NCBI RefSeq assembly: GCF_002162315.1
Contig: NZ_CP021416.1
Coordinates: 806,001 to 870,000, forward strand
DNA length: 64,000 nucleotides
From: Sulfurospirillum diekertiae
GTDB lineage: Bacteria; Campylobacterota; Campylobacteria; Campylobacterales; Sulfurospirillaceae
Direction of reading: 5' to 3'
Positions 7,966 through 16,155 of the stretch are shown here, piece by piece. A model generated the notes under the pieces. It saw only the letters and a program-made list of their open reading frames with translations. It made no database searches and was not told the DNA's origin. The translations under genes were made by a program, and so were the position numbers. Positions within the stretch are counted from its first letter, which is position 1; each line of letters starts with the position of its first letter.

Positions 7966-8604
7966 ATGGATCGTATTCGAACTGTTTCATGCTTTTCAAA
8001 ACTGAACGATGAGCAATTGGAAAAACTCAAGAAGATTTCTGTTATCAAAAAGTTTAAAGCTAAAGAGATTCTATTCTATGAAGGTGACGAGCCTATTTAT
8101 CTGTATGTTCTGCTTCAAGGCACGCTGAAAGTTTACAAAACCAACCACAAAGGACAGCAGATCTTTTTGCATCAGTTTTATCCTGGCGGCTTAGTGGCAG
8201 AGTTGGCTAATTTTGAAAATATTCCGTACCCTGCAACGGCGGAGTTTATGAGTAACAGTGAAGTGCTTCGCATCGACTACAAGGCATTGGAGCATGACTT
8301 TTTCAAAAATCCTGAGATCTCCTTTGAAATCATCAAAAGCCTCATTGCTAAACATAAAATCCTCATTGATGTCATTCAAAAAGAGGTCATTTTAACGGCT
8401 GATGCCAAAGTGGCAAAGTTTATTTTAGAAAATGGCGAACTCTTTAAAACGCTCAAAAATACCCAAGTGGCTTCCATTTTAAACCTGACTCCCGAAACAC
8501 TCTCTCGCACCCTTTCCAAATTCAAAACCTCAGGGCTCATCGAGCTTGACGAGCAGCATCACATTCACGTTCTTAAGCCTCAAAAATTGGAAGAAGTCCT
8601 CTAG
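7966..8604 (+). CDS. CRP/FNR-family transcription regulator upstream of nrf
   Basis: Cytoplasmic regulator of 212 residues: an N-terminal cyclic-nucleotide-like sensor barrel (about 10-120), a dimer helix, and a C-terminal winged helix. The recognition helix reads LTPETLSRTLSKF; its E..SR pattern is the FNR-type pattern that contacts TTGA half-sites. It lacks the N-terminal cysteine cluster of true FNR, so it does not carry an oxygen-sensing [4Fe-4S] centre of that kind. It lies directly upstream of the nrf promoter, which contains a TTGAC-N4-GTCAA box. Wolinella Nss proteins and Campylobacter NssR are the best functional comparison (nitrosative or nitrate/nitrite control). Signal and target are inferred. 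Confidence 0.82.
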   Translation: MDRIRTVSCFSKLNDEQLEKLKKISVIKKFKAKEILFYEGDEPIYLYVLLQGTLKVYKTNHKGQQIFLHQFYPGGLVAELANFENIPYPATAEFMSNSEVLRIDYKALEHDFFKNPEISFEIIKSLIAKHKILIDVIQKEVILTADAKVAKFILENGELFKTLKNTQVASILNLTPETLSRTLSKFKTSGLIELDEQHHIHVLKPQKLEEVL

Positions 8605-8620
8605 CCTTTTAGACATTTTA

Positions 8621-8662
8621 TTGACATAGGTCAATGTTTTTTTTCGCCTTTCTTTATACAAT
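8621..8662 (+). promoter_or_regulatory. nrf promoter: FNR-like box plus -10 element
   Basis: The perfect dyad TTGAC-ATAG-GTCAA (8621-8634) is followed after 22 bases by TACAAT (8657-8662). Counting from a start point near 8669 puts the box centre at about -41.5, the class II activator position of CRP/FNR proteins. The napA promoter has the same arrangement. Box and spacing are read directly; factor identity is inferred from the nearby ExxSR regulators. Confidence 0.72.
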
Positions 8663-8828: not shown

Positions 8829-9362
8829 GTGAAAAGTAGTAATTTCCTAAAGTACACGGCACTCTTGGTTTTTGTCATAGCCATAGGCTTTTTTGCCTAC
8901 ATGGTGCATGCATCCAAAGCGCTGTCGTATCTCTCCCATGATCCCAAAGCCTGTATCAACTGTCACGTCATGAATACGCAATACGCAACATGGCAACACA
9001 GTTCACACGCTGAGCGGGCTGGGTGTATCGATTGTCACTTGCCACGGGATAATATGGTCAATAAGTACATTGCAAAAGCACGCGATGGGTATAACCACAG
9101 TGTTGCTTTTACGTTCAATACGTACAAAAATGCCATTAAAATCAGTGATGATGGAGCGAAGAGAGTTCAGGAGAATTGTATTTCGTGTCATGCGAGTTTA
9201 ACCTCACAAATGGTTAAAAATGCCGATGCAAATCACAATTATGACGATCCAAGTGTAGCAACGGGCAGACGTTGTTGGGAGTGCCATAAAGGTGTACCGC
9301 ATGGTAAAGTCAGAGGTTTGACGACTACGCCAAATAATCTTGGCGTTAAAGAAGTTCAGTAA
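8829..9362 (+). CDS. nrfH: Cytochrome c nitrite reductase membrane subunit NrfH
   Basis: NapC/NirT-family tetrahaem quinol dehydrogenase that passes electrons from menaquinol to NrfA. One N-terminal transmembrane helix (residues 8-25) anchors it, and four haem motifs follow: CINCH, CIDCH, CISCH and CWECH. The length of 177 residues is normal for NrfH. The start is GTG: the overlapping ATG at 8827 is followed at once by TGA, and GAAGGAGG lies just upstream. It starts the nrfHAIJ operon and is 11 bases from nrfA. Confidence 0.95.
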   Translation: MKSSNFLKYTALLVFVIAIGFFAYMVHASKALSYLSHDPKACINCHVMNTQYATWQHSSHAERAGCIDCHLPRDNMVNKYIAKARDGYNHSVAFTFNTYKNAIKISDDGAKRVQENCISCHASLTSQMVKNADANHNYDDPSVATGRRCWECHKGVPHGKVRGLTTTPNNLGVKEVQ

Positions 9363-9373
9363 AAGGAGAAATA

Positions 9374-10906
9374 ATGATGAAGTTTAAAGTGTTACTTGTT
9401 GGCTCATTGGTCGCTATCGGCGCGATGGCATTACTGGCTGGCAACATAACTGAAAAAGAGAAACAAAGAGTCGAATTGGCTAAAGCTCCAAGTGAAGCAG
9501 GCATCGGAGGTAAAGCAAAAAGTGAAGAGTGGGCAAAATACTACCCAAGACAGTTTGATTCTTGGAAGCAAACCAAAGAACAAGATAATCTCAAAGATAT
9601 GCTTGCTCAAAAACCTTACCTTGTTGTTGCATGGGCTGGGTATCCTTTTTCAAAAGATTATAACGCTCCACGTGGTCACTTCTATGCTATTCAAGATAAC
9701 GTTAACTCCCTTCGAACAGGGGCTCCAACCGATGCAAAGACAGGTCCTTTGCCAACCGCATGTTGGACATGTAAATCACCTGATGTTCCTCGTTTGATTG
9801 AAGAAGATGGTGAATTAGAATACTTTACAGGTAAATGGGCAAAATACGGCGCGCAAGTGGTTAATCCAATTGGCTGTGCAACCTGTCATGATGACAAAAC
9901 AGCGCAGTTAAGCGTTCGTGTTCCTCATCTTAATCGTGGCTTGCAAGCAGCAGGGCTTAAAACATTCGAAGAGTCTACTCACCAAGAGAAACGCTCTTTA
10001 GTCTGTGCGCAATGTCACGTAGAATACTACTTTAAAAAGACAGAATGGAAAGATGCCAAAGGCGTTGATAAAACAGCCATGGTGGTGACCCTTCCTTATG
10101 GCAAAGGTTTAACCGTAGAAGCGATGGAAAAATACTATGATGAGATTAACTTCTCTGACTGGGTACATGGTATTTCTAAGACACCAATGATTAAAGCGCA
10201 ACACCCTGATTGGGAGCTTTGGAGAACGGGAATTCACGGACAAAAAGGTGTTTCATGTGCCGATTGTCACATGCCTTATACGCAAGAAGGTGCTGTTAAA
10301 TATTCTGATCACAACATTGGAAATCCTCTTAAAAATATGGATAAAAGTTGTATGAACTGCCATAGAGAGAGTGAAAATAAACTCAAAGGTATCGTACAAC
10401 AAAAAGTAGAGCGAAAAGATTTCATGATGGATATCGCGTTTGATAATATTGCAAAAGCGCATCTTGAAACAGGCAAAGCGATGGAAGTAGGCGCAAGTGA
10501 TGATGAACTTAAAGAGATCCGTACACTCATCCGTCATGCTCAATGGAGAGGTGATATGGCCATTGCAGGTCATGGTGCATTCTTCCATGCTCCTGAAGAG
10601 GTCTTAAGGCTTTTGGGATCTGCGAATGAGCAAGCCCAACAAGCACGCCTTAAATTGGTCAGTGTTCTTGCCAAACATGGTGTGATGGATTATATAGCAC
10701 CTGATTTTGATACGAAAGAAAAAGCACAAAAAATCGCAAAAGTCAATCTCCAAGCTGAGATTGATGCAAAGTTGAAATTTAAAGAAACGCTTGAGAAAGA
10801 GTGGAAAAAAGAGGCAGCTGCTAAAGGCAGACTCGCTCCAAATTCCGTTGCTCTTGATCCTTCTGTTGATGTTAAATCTTCTTACTTCGACAAAACTAAG
10901 AAGTAA
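9374..10906 (+). CDS. nrfA: Cytochrome c nitrite reductase catalytic subunit NrfA
   Basis: Periplasmic pentahaem enzyme that reduces nitrite to ammonium with six electrons. A signal peptide ends near residue 22. The active-site haem has the special CWTCK motif near residue 133, and four CxxCH motifs follow (CATCH, CAQCH, CADCH, CMNCH). The CMNCH and downstream HAQWRGDMAIAGHG region supply distal haem ligands. The length of 510 residues is typical. Two ATGs (9374 and 9377) are possible; both have AGGAG upstream. CXXCK needs a dedicated lyase, supplied by the next gene in Wolinella-type nrf operons. Confidence 0.96.
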   Translation: MMKFKVLLVGSLVAIGAMALLAGNITEKEKQRVELAKAPSEAGIGGKAKSEEWAKYYPRQFDSWKQTKEQDNLKDMLAQKPYLVVAWAGYPFSKDYNAPRGHFYAIQDNVNSLRTGAPTDAKTGPLPTACWTCKSPDVPRLIEEDGELEYFTGKWAKYGAQVVNPIGCATCHDDKTAQLSVRVPHLNRGLQAAGLKTFEESTHQEKRSLVCAQCHVEYYFKKTEWKDAKGVDKTAMVVTLPYGKGLTVEAMEKYYDEINFSDWVHGISKTPMIKAQHPDWELWRTGIHGQKGVSCADCHMPYTQEGAVKYSDHNIGNPLKNMDKSCMNCHRESENKLKGIVQQKVERKDFMMDIAFDNIAKAHLETGKAMEVGASDDELKEIRTLIRHAQWRGDMAIAGHGAFFHAPEEVLRLLGSANEQAQQARLKLVSVLAKHGVMDYIAPDFDTKEKAQKIAKVNLQAEIDAKLKFKETLEKEWKKEAAAKGRLAPNSVALDPSVDVKSSYFDKTKK

Positions 10907-10914
10907 ATTCTAAA

Positions 10915-10940
10915 CAAGAGAGAGAGGTATCTCTCTCTTG
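10915..10940 (+). promoter_or_regulatory. Intra-operon hairpin between nrfA and nrfI
   Basis: CAAGAGAGAG (10915-10924) pairs with CTCTCTCTTG (10931-10940) in an 11-bp stem with a 4-base loop if the flanking A-T pair is counted. No T run follows. It probably acts as a partial terminator or mRNA-stabilising structure, keeping nrfA transcripts above those of the cytochrome c synthase. Confidence 0.6.
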
Positions 10941-11006
10941 CCTTGTGATATACTAAAACTTCCAAAGGCACTTTTAGTGTGTCACACTCTTCTTCCAAGG
11001 ACAAAC

Positions 11007-13382
11007 GTGTTGCTCAAAGTTTTCGGCTCTTACAAAACGACACTGTTTTTACTTTTCATTTTAGCTGTAGGTGCCGCGGTAGCAACCTTTGTTGAAAATG
11101 ATTTTGGCACAGCGGTAGCGCGTCATTATGTTTACAATGCCATTTGGTACGAAGCATTTTTAACTCTGGGCGCGCTTAATCTTGCCATTGTCCTTTACCG
11201 ATCTAAAATGTTTTTACATGTAAGCCGTTTTGTCTTTCATGCCACATTTATTCTCATCCTCATTGGCGCAGGTTTAACCCATTTTTTGGGCGTGGATGGC
11301 GTGATGAAAATCCGCGAAGGCTCAAGCTCCAATGTCATCTTTTCAAACGATAAAAATGTAGAAATCACCCTTCCTTTTGCCGTGCATCTTAACCATTTTG
11401 AGCTAGAGCGTTACTATGGCAGTCGTTCGCCTTCAGCGTATACCAGTGACGTTCGTGTGCTTGATGGCAACATGACGCTGGATGCTCAGATATTTATGAA
11501 CCATACACTCACCTACAAAGGGTATAAATTTTTTCAAACCTTTTACGATCCCGATGAAAAAGGCACGATTCTCTCCGTCACCAAAGACCCTGGCGTTGAG
11601 GTGACGTATGTGGGGTATGCATTGCTTTTTTTAGGGCTGATCTTTAACCTTTTAGACCCCAAATCACGTTTTCGAAAACTTATTGCTGAGGTCAAAAGCA
11701 GTTCGCTTCTGGTGCTGCTTGTTTTGGTGGTGCAAACACCGTTGTGGTGTGAGAGCGAGTATGTACAAAACTATTTGAGTGAGCATCAGGTTAAGAGTAA
11801 AGTGGTCAGTGACGCGTTTGGCAAACTGGTCGTGCAGTCGCGTATGGGACGCATGAAGCCCTTTGATACACTTTCCCAAGAGGTACTGTATAAACTCAGC
11901 GGTCACAATAGTCTGTACGATATGGATGCCATGCAAATCGCACTTGGCATGCTTTCCCATCCAACGCTGTGGAAAAACCTTCCGATGATTCAGACCAAAA
12001 CGCCGAAACTTCGAGCGTTCATTGGCGTGCGAAACGATCAAAAGCTCGCTTCCTTCAATGATTTTTTTGATGGACATCGCTACAAGTTAGAGGCTGAACT
12101 TCAAAAAGCACTGGCGATCAAACCCAGCCAGCGTGGGACGTTTGAAAACGATCTCATCAAAGTCGATGAGCGCCTGAGCATTGCGTTTATGCTCTACCAA
12201 GGCGTTCTCTTTAAAATCTTCCCACTGCCTAATGATACACACCACACATGGCTTGCCTTTGAGCAGATGTTTGCGCAATTAGAGGGAGAGGAAGCTGAAA
12301 CACTTAAAGAGAGTTCCACCGCCTTTATCGAGGCACTGTTTGAGCGAGACTATGACAAAGCACTTTTACATGTAAAGACATTTTCACAGTTTCAAACCCA
12401 CTATGGCGCCGATATTATGCCTTCACCCACACACATCAACATGGAAATACTTTTTAATAAACTGATGCTTTTTGAGCGTTTAACTATGGCGTATGTGCTC
12501 TTAGGTTTGGTGCTTTTAGGCGTTGCATTTGGGCGTGTTTTTGCGCCACAAACCTTTACATGTAAACTCACTCGACCGCTGTTTTTTATTGTTGCAGCGC
12601 TGTTTGTCGTGCATACCTGTGGATTGGCTTTGAGGTGGTATGTGAGCGGTCATGCACCACTGAGCGACACGTATGAGTCCATTGTGTACATCGCATGGTC
12701 GTGTCTGCTTTTTTGCATGCTTTTTATGCGTCGTTCCCTTTTTGCGCTCTCAGGCTCGGTCATGATGGCGGGCATTTTTATGTTTGTCGCACATTTGGGG
12801 CACATTGACCCAGAGATCACCAACCTTGTGCCTGTGCTCAAATCCTTTTGGCTTTCGGTGCATGTTTCCATCATTACCGCCAGTTATGGTTTTTTAGCAC
12901 TCGGCTGTGCGCTGGGATTTTTCACGCTGATTCTCTTTACATGTAAACGCTCCACGCAAATTATTGCGACCATCAAACACCTCACGTCGATTAATGAAAT
13001 CACCCTTATTTTGGGCTTGAGTCTTTTGGTCATCGGTAACTTTTTGGGCGGTATTTGGGCGAATGAATCGTGGGGACGCTATTGGGGTTGGGACCCTAAA
13101 GAGACGTGGGCGTATATTTCTATTTTAGTGTACACTTTCATTTTACATGTAAGACTTGTGCCACGGTTTTATTCACACTATCTTTTTGCCGTGCTCTCAC
13201 TTTTAGGCTTTGCGTCCATCTTGATGACCTACTTTGGCGTGAATTTTTACCTAGCAGGCATGCACTCTTATGCTACGGGAGATCCTGTGCCCATTCCTAC
13301 GTGGGTGTATGTGTGCAGTGGCGTGGTTGCTTGTTTGATTGTACTGTCGTATAAAAATAAAAATTTAAAGGAAGAAAAATGA
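11007..13382 (+). CDS. nrfI: Fused CcsB-CcsA cytochrome c synthase, NrfI type
   Basis: System II haem lyase that exports haem and joins it to apocytochromes c. The N-terminal third is ResB/CcsB-like with several transmembrane helices and a periplasmic domain; the C-terminal half is CcsA with the tryptophan-rich haem motif WGRYWGWDPKETW near residue 690. Histidines for external haem ligation flank it. In Wolinella the equivalent NrfI handles the CXXCK haem of NrfA, so this copy probably does too. The GTG at 11007 is chosen: CCAAGGA precedes it and the first helix starts soon after; the longer frame from 10938 overlaps the hairpin. The gene contains five copies of TTACATGTAA, all read as LHV(K/S/R) or FTCK. 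Confidence 0.9.
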   Translation: MLLKVFGSYKTTLFLLFILAVGAAVATFVENDFGTAVARHYVYNAIWYEAFLTLGALNLAIVLYRSKMFLHVSRFVFHATFILILIGAGLTHFLGVDGVMKIREGSSSNVIFSNDKNVEITLPFAVHLNHFELERYYGSRSPSAYTSDVRVLDGNMTLDAQIFMNHTLTYKGYKFFQTFYDPDEKGTILSVTKDPGVEVTYVGYALLFLGLIFNLLDPKSRFRKLIAEVKSSSLLVLLVLVVQTPLWCESEYVQNYLSEHQVKSKVVSDAFGKLVVQSRMGRMKPFDTLSQEVLYKLSGHNSLYDMDAMQIALGMLSHPTLWKNLPMIQTKTPKLRAFIGVRNDQKLASFNDFFDGHRYKLEAELQKALAIKPSQRGTFENDLIKVDERLSIAFMLYQGVLFKIFPLPNDTHHTWLAFEQMFAQLEGEEAETLKESSTAFIEALFERDYDKALLHVKTFSQFQTHYGADIMPSPTHINMEILFNKLMLFERLTMAYVLLGLVLLGVAFGRVFAPQTFTCKLTRPLFFIVAALFVVHTCGLALRWYVSGHAPLSDTYESIVYIAWSCLLFCMLFMRRSLFALSGSVMMAGIFMFVAHLGHIDPEITNLVPVLKSFWLSVHVSIITASYGFLALGCALGFFTLILFTCKRSTQIIATIKHLTSINEITLILGLSLLVIGNFLGGIWANESWGRYWGWDPKETWAYISILVYTFILHVRLVPRFYSHYLFAVLSLLGFASILMTYFGVNFYLAGMHSYATGDPVPIPTWVYVCSGVVACLIVLSYKNKNLKEEK

Positions 13383-14029
13383 ATAAAATTAAATTACTAG
13401 CACTTTCACTAGCGCTCATCGGCAATCTTTACGCAGGCGATGTCTATGAAGGCATTGTGGTCGATACGATTGATGGCGGTGGATACACGTACTTGCAGAT
13501 TGATGACACGAAGAAAAAATACTGGGTTGCCGTTGAGGGCGTGAAAATCGAAAAAGGGACAGAAGTCCGTTTTACCGAAGAGATGAGAGTTAAAAATTTT
13601 CAAAGTAAGGCGTTAAATCGTACCTTTGATGAGGTCGTGTTTGCATCCAACCTTCAACACCGCACCAACGTTCCAGAAGCTGGTAATCTTGCTTTAATTA
13701 CAGAGCAAGTGAAAGAGTCTCCTTACAAACAAAAGGATACAATAAGTGTCAAAGAGGCATGGGAAAAACGTGCCAGTTTGAAAGACAAAACAATTACAAT
13801 TCGCGGTAAGGTTGTCAAAGCTTCACAGAACATCATTTCACGTAACTGGATTCATATTCAAGATGGTACGGGTGAGGGAAGTGAAGTAGGGCGCATCGTC
13901 TTTACCTCAAAAGAACTCCCAAAAGTGGGAGATATTGTAACGGCAACGGGTGTTGTTACCATTGATAAGGACTTTGGCTCGGGTTATTTTTATAAAATTA
14001 TTGTTGAAAATGCTACATTTACTAAATAA
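13379..14029 (+). CDS. NrfJ-like periplasmic OB-fold protein
   Basis: A secreted protein of 216 residues with a signal peptide (residues 1-19, cut near LYA-GDVY). Two OB-fold-like beta regions are visible: residues 20-75 (VYEGIVVDTIDGGGYTYLQI) and residues 120-210 with KDKTITIRGKVVKASQN, the nucleic-acid-binding-like OB pattern also seen in periplasmic proteins. It overlaps the nrfI stop by 4 bases and is the last gene of the nrf operon, the position of Wolinella nrfJ. There are no haem motifs. Its role in nitrite reduction or haem maturation is not known; the name follows position only. Confidence 0.65.
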   Translation: MNKIKLLALSLALIGNLYAGDVYEGIVVDTIDGGGYTYLQIDDTKKKYWVAVEGVKIEKGTEVRFTEEMRVKNFQSKALNRTFDEVVFASNLQHRTNVPEAGNLALITEQVKESPYKQKDTISVKEAWEKRASLKDKTITIRGKVVKASQNIISRNWIHIQDGTGEGSEVGRIVFTSKELPKVGDIVTATGVVTIDKDFGSGYFYKIIVENATFTK

Positions 14030-14049: not shown

Positions 14050-14712
14050 ATGGCAAATGATTCTTTATCTCTGATCGCTTCATTGCCACTGTTCGATGCG
14101 CTAGAACATGAAGATATCGAAAAGATCGCCTCCTTTTGCACGGTACGTCATCACAAAGCAGGTGACGTACTTTTTTATGAGAAAGACACCAAAGATTCGA
14201 TCTATTATATCATCAACGGTTCAGTCAAGTTTTACAAGGTGGATCGTTTCGACAATGAAATCTTTCTCTACAAACTCTATTCAAACTCGCTCATTTTCAA
14301 CGTCTCCAAGCTGATCGACAGTTTTTTCATCAGCTGTTACGCGAATGCGGAATTTTTGGAAGACAGTATGGTGCTTTCCATCCAGAGTGAGCCGTTTCGT
14401 ACGATGATCTATGCGAATCATCGTTTGATGACGAAGATTTTGGAAGAGTCGTTTAAAATGATTCAGCAGATGCAGTGTATTATTAGCCGTGATGTTGTGT
14501 TCGATGGAACAGCAAAAGTGGCGCATATGCTCGTTAATGAGCTTGAAACCTTTAACCGCCTAAAAAAACATGAAATTGCCTATATGCTACACATTCAACC
14601 CGAGACACTTTCACGTATTTTAAACAAACTCACCCGTAATGGAACGATTGAAATCGAAAAAAACAGTGTGGTCATCTTGAATATTCAAGAATTAAAAGAG
14701 ATTTATGAGTAG
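14050..14712 (+). CDS. CRP/FNR-family transcription regulator downstream of nrf
   Basis: Second regulator of this family in the window, 220 residues. The sensor barrel occupies about residues 10-120 and the winged helix the last 70, with recognition helix IQPETLSRILNKL, again the E..SR pattern that fits TTGA half-sites. There is no N-terminal FNR cysteine set. It follows the nrf operon by 20 bases and is 6 bases upstream of a PilJ-type sensor gene, so the two are probably co-transcribed. A role in nitrate or nitrite control (Nss-like) is inferred from context and from the TTGAC boxes at nrfH and napA. Confidence 0.8.
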   Translation: MANDSLSLIASLPLFDALEHEDIEKIASFCTVRHHKAGDVLFYEKDTKDSIYYIINGSVKFYKVDRFDNEIFLYKLYSNSLIFNVSKLIDSFFISCYANAEFLEDSMVLSIQSEPFRTMIYANHRLMTKILEESFKMIQQMQCIISRDVVFDGTAKVAHMLVNELETFNRLKKHEIAYMLHIQPETLSRILNKLTRNGTIEIEKNSVVILNIQELKEIYE

Positions 14713-14718
14713 GACATT

Positions 14719-16065
14719 ATGATTAAGCCAACAACGATTAGTACCAAAATGAAATTAGCAGGTGGACTGCTCTCTTTCGTGATTATTTTCATTATCTCTT
14801 TAACCGTGATGATGAATCAGATGAGCAAAAAAGACTCCTATATCATCAACATTGCGGGTAAACAGCGTATGCTTTCGCAAAAGATCAGTAAAGAGACGTT
14901 TTTCATCGTACATCGCCATACCAATGACTTTCGTGAGCTCAATACCGCGGTGGGTCTTTTTGAAAGCAGTCTGAAAGACCTGCTGTATGGCAATGATGCC
15001 AAAGGTATTTATGCCCCGCAAAATGAACGCATTAAAGCCAAACTCGAAGAGGTCATGGCACTGTGGCTTCCGTTTCGTTCAGAAGTCGAAGCGCTTAAAA
15101 GTGGGATTGAAGAGGTGCGCCCCGATATGGAAGTGCTGACCCCTCGCATCGAAAAACTGCTGATGCTTTCAGATACGGTCGTGCAACGCATGGTCAAAGC
15201 CAATCTGAGCAACATTCACATCGATCTCTCAGGTCGTCAACGCATGCTTTCTCAACGTATGGGACTCTATGTAAACCGCTATTTGCGCTTGGCAAATGCT
15301 CAAGATTTACTGGTTTTCTCTGATGCGAGAGCACTGTATAACAAAACGATTAAAAGCTTTTTAGATGACCCTGCGGTAAAAAATTCTCCTGAAGTGTATG
15401 CTATTGTCAAAGAGAACAACGCGTATTGGGAAGAGTACATTGTTTATTTAGAGCATGTGATTGCTGTGGAAAATGGGATTAACAAGCATATGGCGTATGT
15501 GTATGAAAAAAATGTGCAGCTGCTCAACGCGATGGACGAGGCGGTTTGGCTTTACACTGCCCATAGCGAAGCAAAGAACGATATGTTCCTCAAATTTCAG
15601 TACATTGCACTTTTGGTTGGACTCATTATTATCGTCTATGCCTTCGTCATGTCAAAAGAGATTATTGAGCATTTAGAGGGATTTGTTCAAAAGGCCAAAG
15701 AGCTAGCACATGGCGATGTAAGTAAGTTTTCAACGCTACCTGTCACGCTCTCCTCCAACAGCGAAGATGAGTTGCAAGAAGCTTCTTCGCACATTTCACT
15801 TTTTGTCCATAAAGTCAATCTCGCGATGAAAGATTCCGAAGATGCGCTCAAAAAAGCTGAAAATGCGGTCTCTCAACTCCAGCAACTTGCGGAAGATGTG
15901 GAAGATGTCATTGAAGATATGGGAATTGATGAGCATGATAAAAAGACATTTGACAAAAATGTCAATGCCACGGAAGACATTGCGATTCAGTCCGCTGAAA
16001 ATCTCATTCATGTCAATCGTATGTTGCAAAAGCTGAAAAAAAAGCCTCAATGCGATGGTCGATAG
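14719..16065 (+). CDS. PilJ/NarX-type membrane sensor without output domain
   Basis: Membrane protein with helices at about residues 14-32 and 292-312 flanking a periplasmic helical domain of about 255 residues. Two similar segments, IAGKQRMLSQKI near residue 49 and LSGRQRMLSQRM near residue 172, match the type IV pili methyl-accepting (PilJ) sensor domain, a relative of nitrate-sensing NarX domains. A HAMP-like linker and a coiled coil follow, then the protein ends at residue 448. No chemoreceptor tip, histidine kinase or GGDEF domain is present. It is 6 bases after a CRP/FNR gene and close to nrf, so a nitrate or nitrite sensing role is attractive but unproven. How it signals is unclear. 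Confidence 0.75.
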   Translation: MIKPTTISTKMKLAGGLLSFVIIFIISLTVMMNQMSKKDSYIINIAGKQRMLSQKISKETFFIVHRHTNDFRELNTAVGLFESSLKDLLYGNDAKGIYAPQNERIKAKLEEVMALWLPFRSEVEALKSGIEEVRPDMEVLTPRIEKLLMLSDTVVQRMVKANLSNIHIDLSGRQRMLSQRMGLYVNRYLRLANAQDLLVFSDARALYNKTIKSFLDDPAVKNSPEVYAIVKENNAYWEEYIVYLEHVIAVENGINKHMAYVYEKNVQLLNAMDEAVWLYTAHSEAKNDMFLKFQYIALLVGLIIIVYAFVMSKEIIEHLEGFVQKAKELAHGDVSKFSTLPVTLSSNSEDELQEASSHISLFVHKVNLAMKDSEDALKKAENAVSQLQQLAEDVEDVIEDMGIDEHDKKTFDKNVNATEDIAIQSAENLIHVNRMLQKLKKKPQCDGR

Positions 16066-16155
16066 CAGCAATCAAGTGGACGAAAAAAAAAGACGTGTAA
16101 CAATTTATTTAAACTCTTAATGTATTATATTTAAAAGATTGCATAAGAGGCTTGA

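Follow-up and report, generated by a model that had tools for sequence, protein, structure and literature searches.

A PilJ-type receptor without a kinase core, paired with an NssA-type CRP/FNR regulator, as a candidate nitrate-signalling unit of Campylobacterota

How a membrane sensor without a known output domain could reach the genes it serves is the question raised by a gene pair of Sulfurospirillum diekertiae. In the window (the whole 64,000-nucleotide stretch of DNA that was analysed), a gene for a CRP/FNR-family transcription factor is separated by 6 bases from the ATG (14719) of a gene for a PilJ-type receptor, and the genes for cytochrome c nitrite reductase lie upstream.

8829..14029, + strand: nrfH-nrfA-nrfI-nrfJ, cytochrome c nitrite reductase genes, starting at 8829, 9374, 10938 and 13379, respectively (ORFs, Pfam, NCBIfam)
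14050..14712, + strand: CRP/FNR-family transcription factor, 220 amino acids, classed as NssA-type (Pfam, CRP alignment, identity to W. succinogenes CRPs)
14719..16065, + strand: PilJ-type membrane receptor, reading frame shifted at the 3' end from about residue 442 on (Pfam PilJ, relatives, frame break)
15604..15654, + strand: predicted second transmembrane helix, about residues 296-312 (hydrophobicity judged by eye; modelled helices, pLDDT about 50 there)

The name nrfJ was given by position after nrfI (nrfHAIJ order: PMC12285233). The initial annotation had described a CRP/FNR gene 6 bases from a PilJ-type sensor near nrf, the sensor having two QRML(S)Q repeats, two membrane helices and no output domain, and this description was borne out by the reading frames, by Pfam and by the position of the pair downstream of nrfHAIJ. 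The transcription factor belongs to the CRP/FNR superfamily, with matches to Pfam cNMP_binding (37.0 bits) and HTH_Crp_2 (42.1 bits), both above cut-off; its recognition helix is QPETLSRIL. The receptor is a member of the PilJ family (PF13675; 92.5 bits over two stretches, cut-off 26.6) and the sole PilJ protein above the family cut-off in the whole genome. QRMLSQ occurs twice in it, at residues 49-54 and 174-179. Hydrophobicity read by eye and the structural model place the first transmembrane helix at about residues 13-32 and, after the second, a HAMP-like helical stretch and a coiled coil. MCPsignal, HisKA and HATPase gave no match to the receptor at E ≤ 1, so that it has neither the kinase domains of NarX/NarQ nor the signalling domain of a chemotaxis protein, and NCBIfam gave matches below cut-off only.

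The 3' end of the receptor gene needs correction. Relatives of about 459 amino acids (range 452-465), ending ..LQKLKKSLNAMV.., align up to residue 441-442 and then read ..KLKKSLNAMV.., whereas in the window one extra A in the run at 16036-16043 (A8, A7 in relatives) shifts the frame from about residue 442 on and yields the incorrect C-terminus KKPQCDGR. Identity to the S. diekertiae comparison receptor is 90% (91% by tblastn). Besides the run that breaks the receptor, those at 16083-16091, about 16654 and about 16768 are also longer than their S. diekertiae counterparts, and a serine-hydrolase-like ORF next door is probably broken by long homopolymer runs as well. As several long runs lie close together, the differences are likely to be assembly errors rather than biology.

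The pairing is conserved. Of 44 family genomes surveyed, 39 have the receptor and 38 the orthologous CRP, intact copies being adjacent in every case; a receptor fragment in one genome (G004) is the sole difference between the two counts. Both genes are absent from five of the 44 (G005, G006, G007, G030 and G035; G030 is 77% complete), and this joint absence, together with the conservation, excludes chance pairing. Beyond the family, a receptor profile (A1) matched 117 of 397 sampled Campylobacterota genomes at E ≤ 1e-20; the same genomes were also searched with a CRP profile (A2), surroundings were fetched and genes were called by a simple ORF script. An adjacent, co-directional CRP-receptor pair was found in 112 of the 117, which include five genomes from the 44-genome inspection and three from a supplementary locus set. 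One of these genomes (G234), in which a nap-type receptor at a contig start is unjudgeable, is counted through its nos-linked pair (L178). The other five of the 117 (G137, G170, G277, G292 and G305) have PilJ-repeat proteins that match the sensing part only and have no tail. Two such proteins (L222 in G305 and L226 in G137) are about 560 amino acids long and match the PilJ part of the receptor model four times in succession.

The table of pairs, 133 in 118 genomes, was gathered around matches and is therefore not an unbiased sample. All gaps in it are 20 nucleotides or less, and an overlap of exactly 4 nucleotides occurs in 49 of the 133, as judged from mechanically called starts; one further family genome outside the table (L012) has a gap of 63 nucleotides. 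The neighbourhood survey called for by the initial annotation thus revealed a real unit that is widespread across Campylobacterota, in which a CRP gene lies upstream of, and often overlaps, a gene for a receptor with one or more PilJ domains, two transmembrane helices and a helical tail. It is apparently undescribed, the novelty being the pairing: a search of openly accessible papers turned up none that reports a PilJ receptor and a CRP as partners in this group of bacteria; the primary NssA paper, which lies outside that search, may mention the neighbour.

The genes next to the pairs are mainly those of nitrogen-oxide respiration. The 133 pairs lie beside nap (53, one of them also beside nrf), nos (21) or nrf (13); those beside none of these three adjoin queA (13), acnB (6) or other genes (27). 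NapA, NapG and NosZ identities were confirmed on representatives. Recurrent neighbours, besides nap, nos, nrf, queA and acnB, are moaA, ftsAZ, tatC, rsmG, rpsO and the gene for a TrpD-like protein, and a GGDEF protein recurs beside the pair in one group. The acnB-linked pairs come from one genus (g43; L089, L104, L137, L139, L141 and L142) and keep only the second N-box position. Directly upstream of one nos-linked CRP, and adjoining ftsZ, is a gene for a 142-amino-acid protein with no Pfam or NCBIfam family (L097:5980-6408, - strand), and the cluster to which it belongs occupies the same place in 21 genomes. The notion that the unit is a prerequisite for nap was dropped: napA was found in 109 of the 112 genomes with a pair (not in G157, G356 and G378), an enrichment, but also in 330 of the 397 sampled genomes, many of which have no pair, so that the unit is not required for nap.

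The same neighbourhoods bear on where the receptor sends its signal. It might act through an unlinked histidine kinase or a chemoreceptor array, in mixed dimers or bundles, with the CRP merely co-regulated. Its HAMP-like and coiled-coil parts resemble those of chemoreceptors, and four longer frames of the same genome (567, 466, 700 and 647 amino acids) match weakly at the same receptor region. However, the receptor itself lacks MCPsignal, HisKA and HATPase domains, and the neighbour clusters of the pairs contain no recurring kinase family. A conserved partner kinase and a pair that is not conserved were the two findings by which the initial annotation would have been refuted, and the survey went in its favour on both. 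Moreover, among the receptor-match genomes the receptor was never found without its CRP, which an unlinked partner does not predict. Signalling by this route is unlikely.

The ligand is suggested by the periplasmic part, in which two boxes stand out.

14845..14880, + strand: N-box of PilJ domain 1, residues 43-54, INIAGKQRMLSQ, exact match to the McpN pattern (pattern from PMC6381276)
15220..15255, + strand: second box, PilJ domain 2, IDLSGRQRMLSQ, one residue off the N-box, G-x-x-R kept (sequence)

McpN is the nitrate chemoreceptor of Pseudomonas aeruginosa and has the same PilJ ligand-binding domain with an exact N-box. According to the accessible part of its description, McpN is nitrate-specific and binds nitrate through the N-box [IVL]-[ND]-x-A-G-x-Q-R-M-L-[ST]-Q, while a PilJ receptor without the box did not bind nitrate (PMC6381276). 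The receptor matches McpN in sequence (E 7e-11) and in structure (PDB 6GCV; rmsd 1.7-1.8 over 82 columns). Whereas McpN feeds the Che pathway, the receptor here lacks a chemotaxis domain, and its PilJ domains number one or two depending on lineage. The best fold match is P. aeruginosa PilJ (7zjr, 8wdf), with the same tandem PilJ periplasmic region (modelled periplasmic part against PilJ, Foldseek E 4.9e-8); unlike the receptor, that protein is devoid of an N-box; it signals into the Chp pathway and does not bind nitrate, as far as the accessible text of PMC6381276 describes it.

The box follows the genomic context. An exact N-box is present in 48 of 53 nap-linked, 11 of 13 nrf-linked, 5 of 13 queA-linked, 5 of 6 acnB-linked and 10 of 27 other receptors, but in none of the 21 nos-linked ones. 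A looser box of the G-x-x-R type, [NDS]..[GN]..R[MLT]..[QRK], is found in all nap- (53/53), nrf- (13/13), queA- (13/13) and acnB-linked (6/6) receptors, in 25 of 27 others and in 1 of 21 next to nos. Receptors range from about 450 amino acids with two PilJ domains to about 330 with one (families f7 and f8), and neither of two nos-linked receptors tested had a PilJ match. By analogy with McpN there is a strong case for nitrate binding by the PilJ dimer, with the N-box as the site; the nitrate box has been lost from nos-linked units, which would respond to a different signal.

Which regulator the paired CRP corresponds to was approached through Wolinella succinogenes, whose Nss regulators share a TTGA-N6-TCAA operator and nap, nrf and nos targets. 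One sampled genome (G204) was identified as this species and contains the exact 40-base dif site of strain DSM 1740. It has three CRP genes: one, beside nap, is paired with the receptor; another, beside nosZ, and the third have no receptor adjoining and are NssB-like and NssC-like. In the same genome nosZ is in two parts with a 396-amino-acid, insertion-like reading frame on the opposite strand between them (L243:7522-11425). The window CRP is 46% identical to the nap-linked CRP of this genome, and 29% and 24% identical to the other two. In the available part of a study of Nitrosophilus (PMC11539149), a nap-linked CRP is 44.8, 29.2 and 26.1% identical to NssA, NssB and NssC, respectively, and a nor-linked one 33.3, 50.0 and 28.2%. 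When four f9 genomes were compared with the three G204 CRPs, the nap-linked CRP gave 45.0-46.2, 28.1-31.4 and 23.7-27.6% and the second CRP 32.1-35.7, 45.2-50.5 and 26.7-30.4%. As these figures agree with those published, the nap-linked, receptor-paired CRP of G204 is most likely NssA, and the window CRP, closest to that protein, is best classed as NssA-type, an assignment that depends on the identities in PMC11539149.

This link gives the predicted ligand a physiological setting. The accessible part of PMC6682613 has NssA mediating the nitrate response, with NarP and FNR orthologues not encoded in Campylobacterota genomes, and that of a 2021 review (PMC8139620) lists nitrate, NO or N2O, but not nitrite, as inducers in W. 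succinogenes, and calls for further work on the way in which nitrate, NO and N2O are sensed by NssA, NssB and NssC. Induction by nitrate but not by nitrite is what an McpN-like N-box predicts. The nitrate ligand proposed in the initial annotation has therefore gained backing from the exact N-box and from the NssA match of the W. succinogenes member; the direct contact proposed with it we infer.

A second CRP gene and an operator lie on the other side of the nrf genes.

7966..8604, + strand: second CRP/FNR gene, unpaired, NssB-like clade, directly upstream of nrfH (tree, identities)
8621..8634, + strand: Nss-type operator, exact, TTGACATAGGTCAA, between the second CRP gene and nrfH (pattern search)

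Of the W. succinogenes proteins, the NssB-like one is 42% identical to the second CRP and the NssA-like one 36%. In upstream intergenic regions of at least 50 nucleotides, an exact TTGA-N6-TCAA was present at 43 of 53 napA, 18 of 18 nosZ and 10 of 12 nrfH genes, where the density within the same loci would predict about 1.2, 0.3 and 0.4, respectively; none of six control palindromes occurred more than once in any class. The operator expected of an NssA-type regulator is thus found at nap, nrf and nos. As it is common to Nss proteins, its occurrence does not tell which CRP acts, and NssB and NssC, reported to act on the same genes as NssA, are not separated by this survey.

The CRP could also sense a cytoplasmic ligand of its own (NO, heme or a nucleotide, as DNR and CRP do), leaving the receptor to another nitrate task such as taxis, transport or reductase assembly. 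Its nearest solved relative is indeed DNR (3dkw), and six genomes (G053, G289, G113, G236, G416 and G301) have the CRP without a receptor; a search of these genomes at E ≤ 1 found no receptor elsewhere other than a weak 586-amino-acid frame in G053 (E 9.7e-4). A quick maximum-likelihood tree of 164 CRPs unites 25 that have no receptor, the second CRP of the window among them, in one clade (SH-aLRT 100), while the six sensorless ones nest among the paired CRPs. Against CRPs acting on their own, these six are mostly on long branches, as if constraint had gone (1.03 in G053, 1.09 in G289, 1.85 for the stem of G113 and G236, 0.51 in G416 and 0.12 in G301; median end branch 0.12). Arg196 points the same way, being present in 93% of paired CRPs and 0% of the 25 NssB-like ones and changed in five of the six sensorless genomes, but paired CRPs of the acnB group also have Gln; as a contact for the tail it was kept as a lead only. 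The frequent overlap of the two genes also argues against separate tasks, and we consider an independently sensing CRP improbable. The four cluster cysteines of FNR were not found in the paired CRPs, in which only Cys96 (65%) and Cys143 (62%) recur; among the unpaired CRPs, Cys exceeds 30% in none of the columns, and Cys96 and Cys143 may form a redox pair.

If receptor and CRP work together, the part of the receptor most likely to be shared by all units is its C-terminal tail.

15973..16038, + strand: C-terminal tail motif E-D-x-x-I-[QE]-S-x-E-x-L-x6-L-x2-L-K-x2-L, proposed output surface (131-receptor alignment)

In the window the last residues of the motif are lost through the frame break. 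The alignment holds the 131 receptors longer than 250 amino acids (two shorter ones excluded), and the best-kept columns of the last 165 residues lie in the tail: E in 131/131, D in 121/131, I in 129/131 and L in 129/131, then L in 124, 129 and 123. The output that had been described as absent is therefore so with regard to kinase and chemotaxis domains, but the tail is the best-kept stretch between membrane and C-terminus in paired receptors. The motif persists with tandem PilJ domains, a single PilJ domain or no PilJ match; a tail that is retained across such different sensing domains is marked out as the common output. Its conservation also contradicts the reading of the receptor as a decaying NarX-like kinase that has lost its output, which would account for the lack of any output domain: the receptor is intact across the order, with the tail glutamate invariant and the N-box kept, and such a remnant is extremely improbable. 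A likeness of E-D-x-x-I-Q to the H-box of NarX-type kinases was dropped, there being no HisKA match.

Contact of the tail with the CRP is what we infer from this pattern. An AlphaFold model of the receptor (10 close sequences) is good in the periplasmic part; the tail, with pLDDT mostly below 50, was modelled as helices at 346-400 and 405-456, which serve as a lead only. Mutual information with APC between tail and CRP (131 pairs, effective number 89) gave top scores, dominated by invariant columns, that were not above those of 20 shuffles within context classes. Across 48 nap-linked loci, distance matrices of CRP and receptor correlate at 0.85 (C-terminal part) and 0.88 (N-terminal part), compared with 0.75 for CRP and NapA; with NapA and NapG both taken into account, the partial correlations are 0.68 and 0.73 for the two receptor parts in the same order. 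As the correlation is not specific to the tail, it is weak evidence and possibly reflects joint inheritance.

In the mechanism that we favour, the periplasmic PilJ dimer would take up nitrate at the N-box, and binding might be passed through the second transmembrane helix and the HAMP-like coil to the tail, which may control the CRP by direct protein contact without phosphotransfer. That this whole chain holds, with a nitrate receptor controlling an NssA-type CRP through its tail, seems somewhat better than an even bet; that the pair is one nitrate-signalling unit is more probable than the chain.

The direction of control could be either. Tentatively, the apo-receptor would hold the CRP inactive at the membrane, nitrate then releasing it to turn on nap and nrf, as an anti-activator would. 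Alternatively, the nitrate-bound receptor might activate the CRP or recruit it to membrane-near promoters; this is a possible but doubtful arrangement, as the receptor has been lost with the CRP kept in six genomes, whereas no genome showed the opposite loss. An inhibitor accounts for this asymmetry more readily than an obligate activator would, and restraint of the CRP by the receptor is thereby weakly favoured.

The proposed unit shares features with several known systems. NarX/NarQ have the same periplasmic four-helix nitrate sensing, an N-x-A-G-x-x-R box, transmembrane helices and control of nap and nrf (PMC8199190, PMC12285233), but they have a kinase core and a response regulator where the receptor has no kinase core and a CRP/FNR partner. 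In Thermus, the accessible part of PMC6282519 proposes that DrpA and DrpB sense nitrate at the membrane and act on DnrS/DnrT without a classical phosphorelay; DrpB is a membrane protein and DrpA lies in the periplasm, a consensus nitrate motif is not noted there, and the comparison is by description only. For the W. succinogenes Nss regulators, of which the paired CRP is the NssA counterpart, the consulted portions of the reviews describe no membrane partner.

It is an evenly balanced proposition that the pairs represent a type of transmembrane signalling, found across Campylobacterota, in which a receptor dimer devoid of enzymatic output addresses a CRP/FNR factor directly by way of its conserved tail. 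Receptor variants would be tuned to nitrate beside nap and nrf or, where the nitrate box has been lost beside nos, to a different N-oxide, for example N2O, and the receptor would be the missing nitrate sensor of NssA. For NssA the pair thus provides a candidate receptor, in a laboratory species that is amenable to genetics. Should the contact prove real, control of a CRP/FNR factor by a membrane receptor would need no phosphotransfer, and the nos-linked variant would be a candidate sensor for the greenhouse gas N2O.
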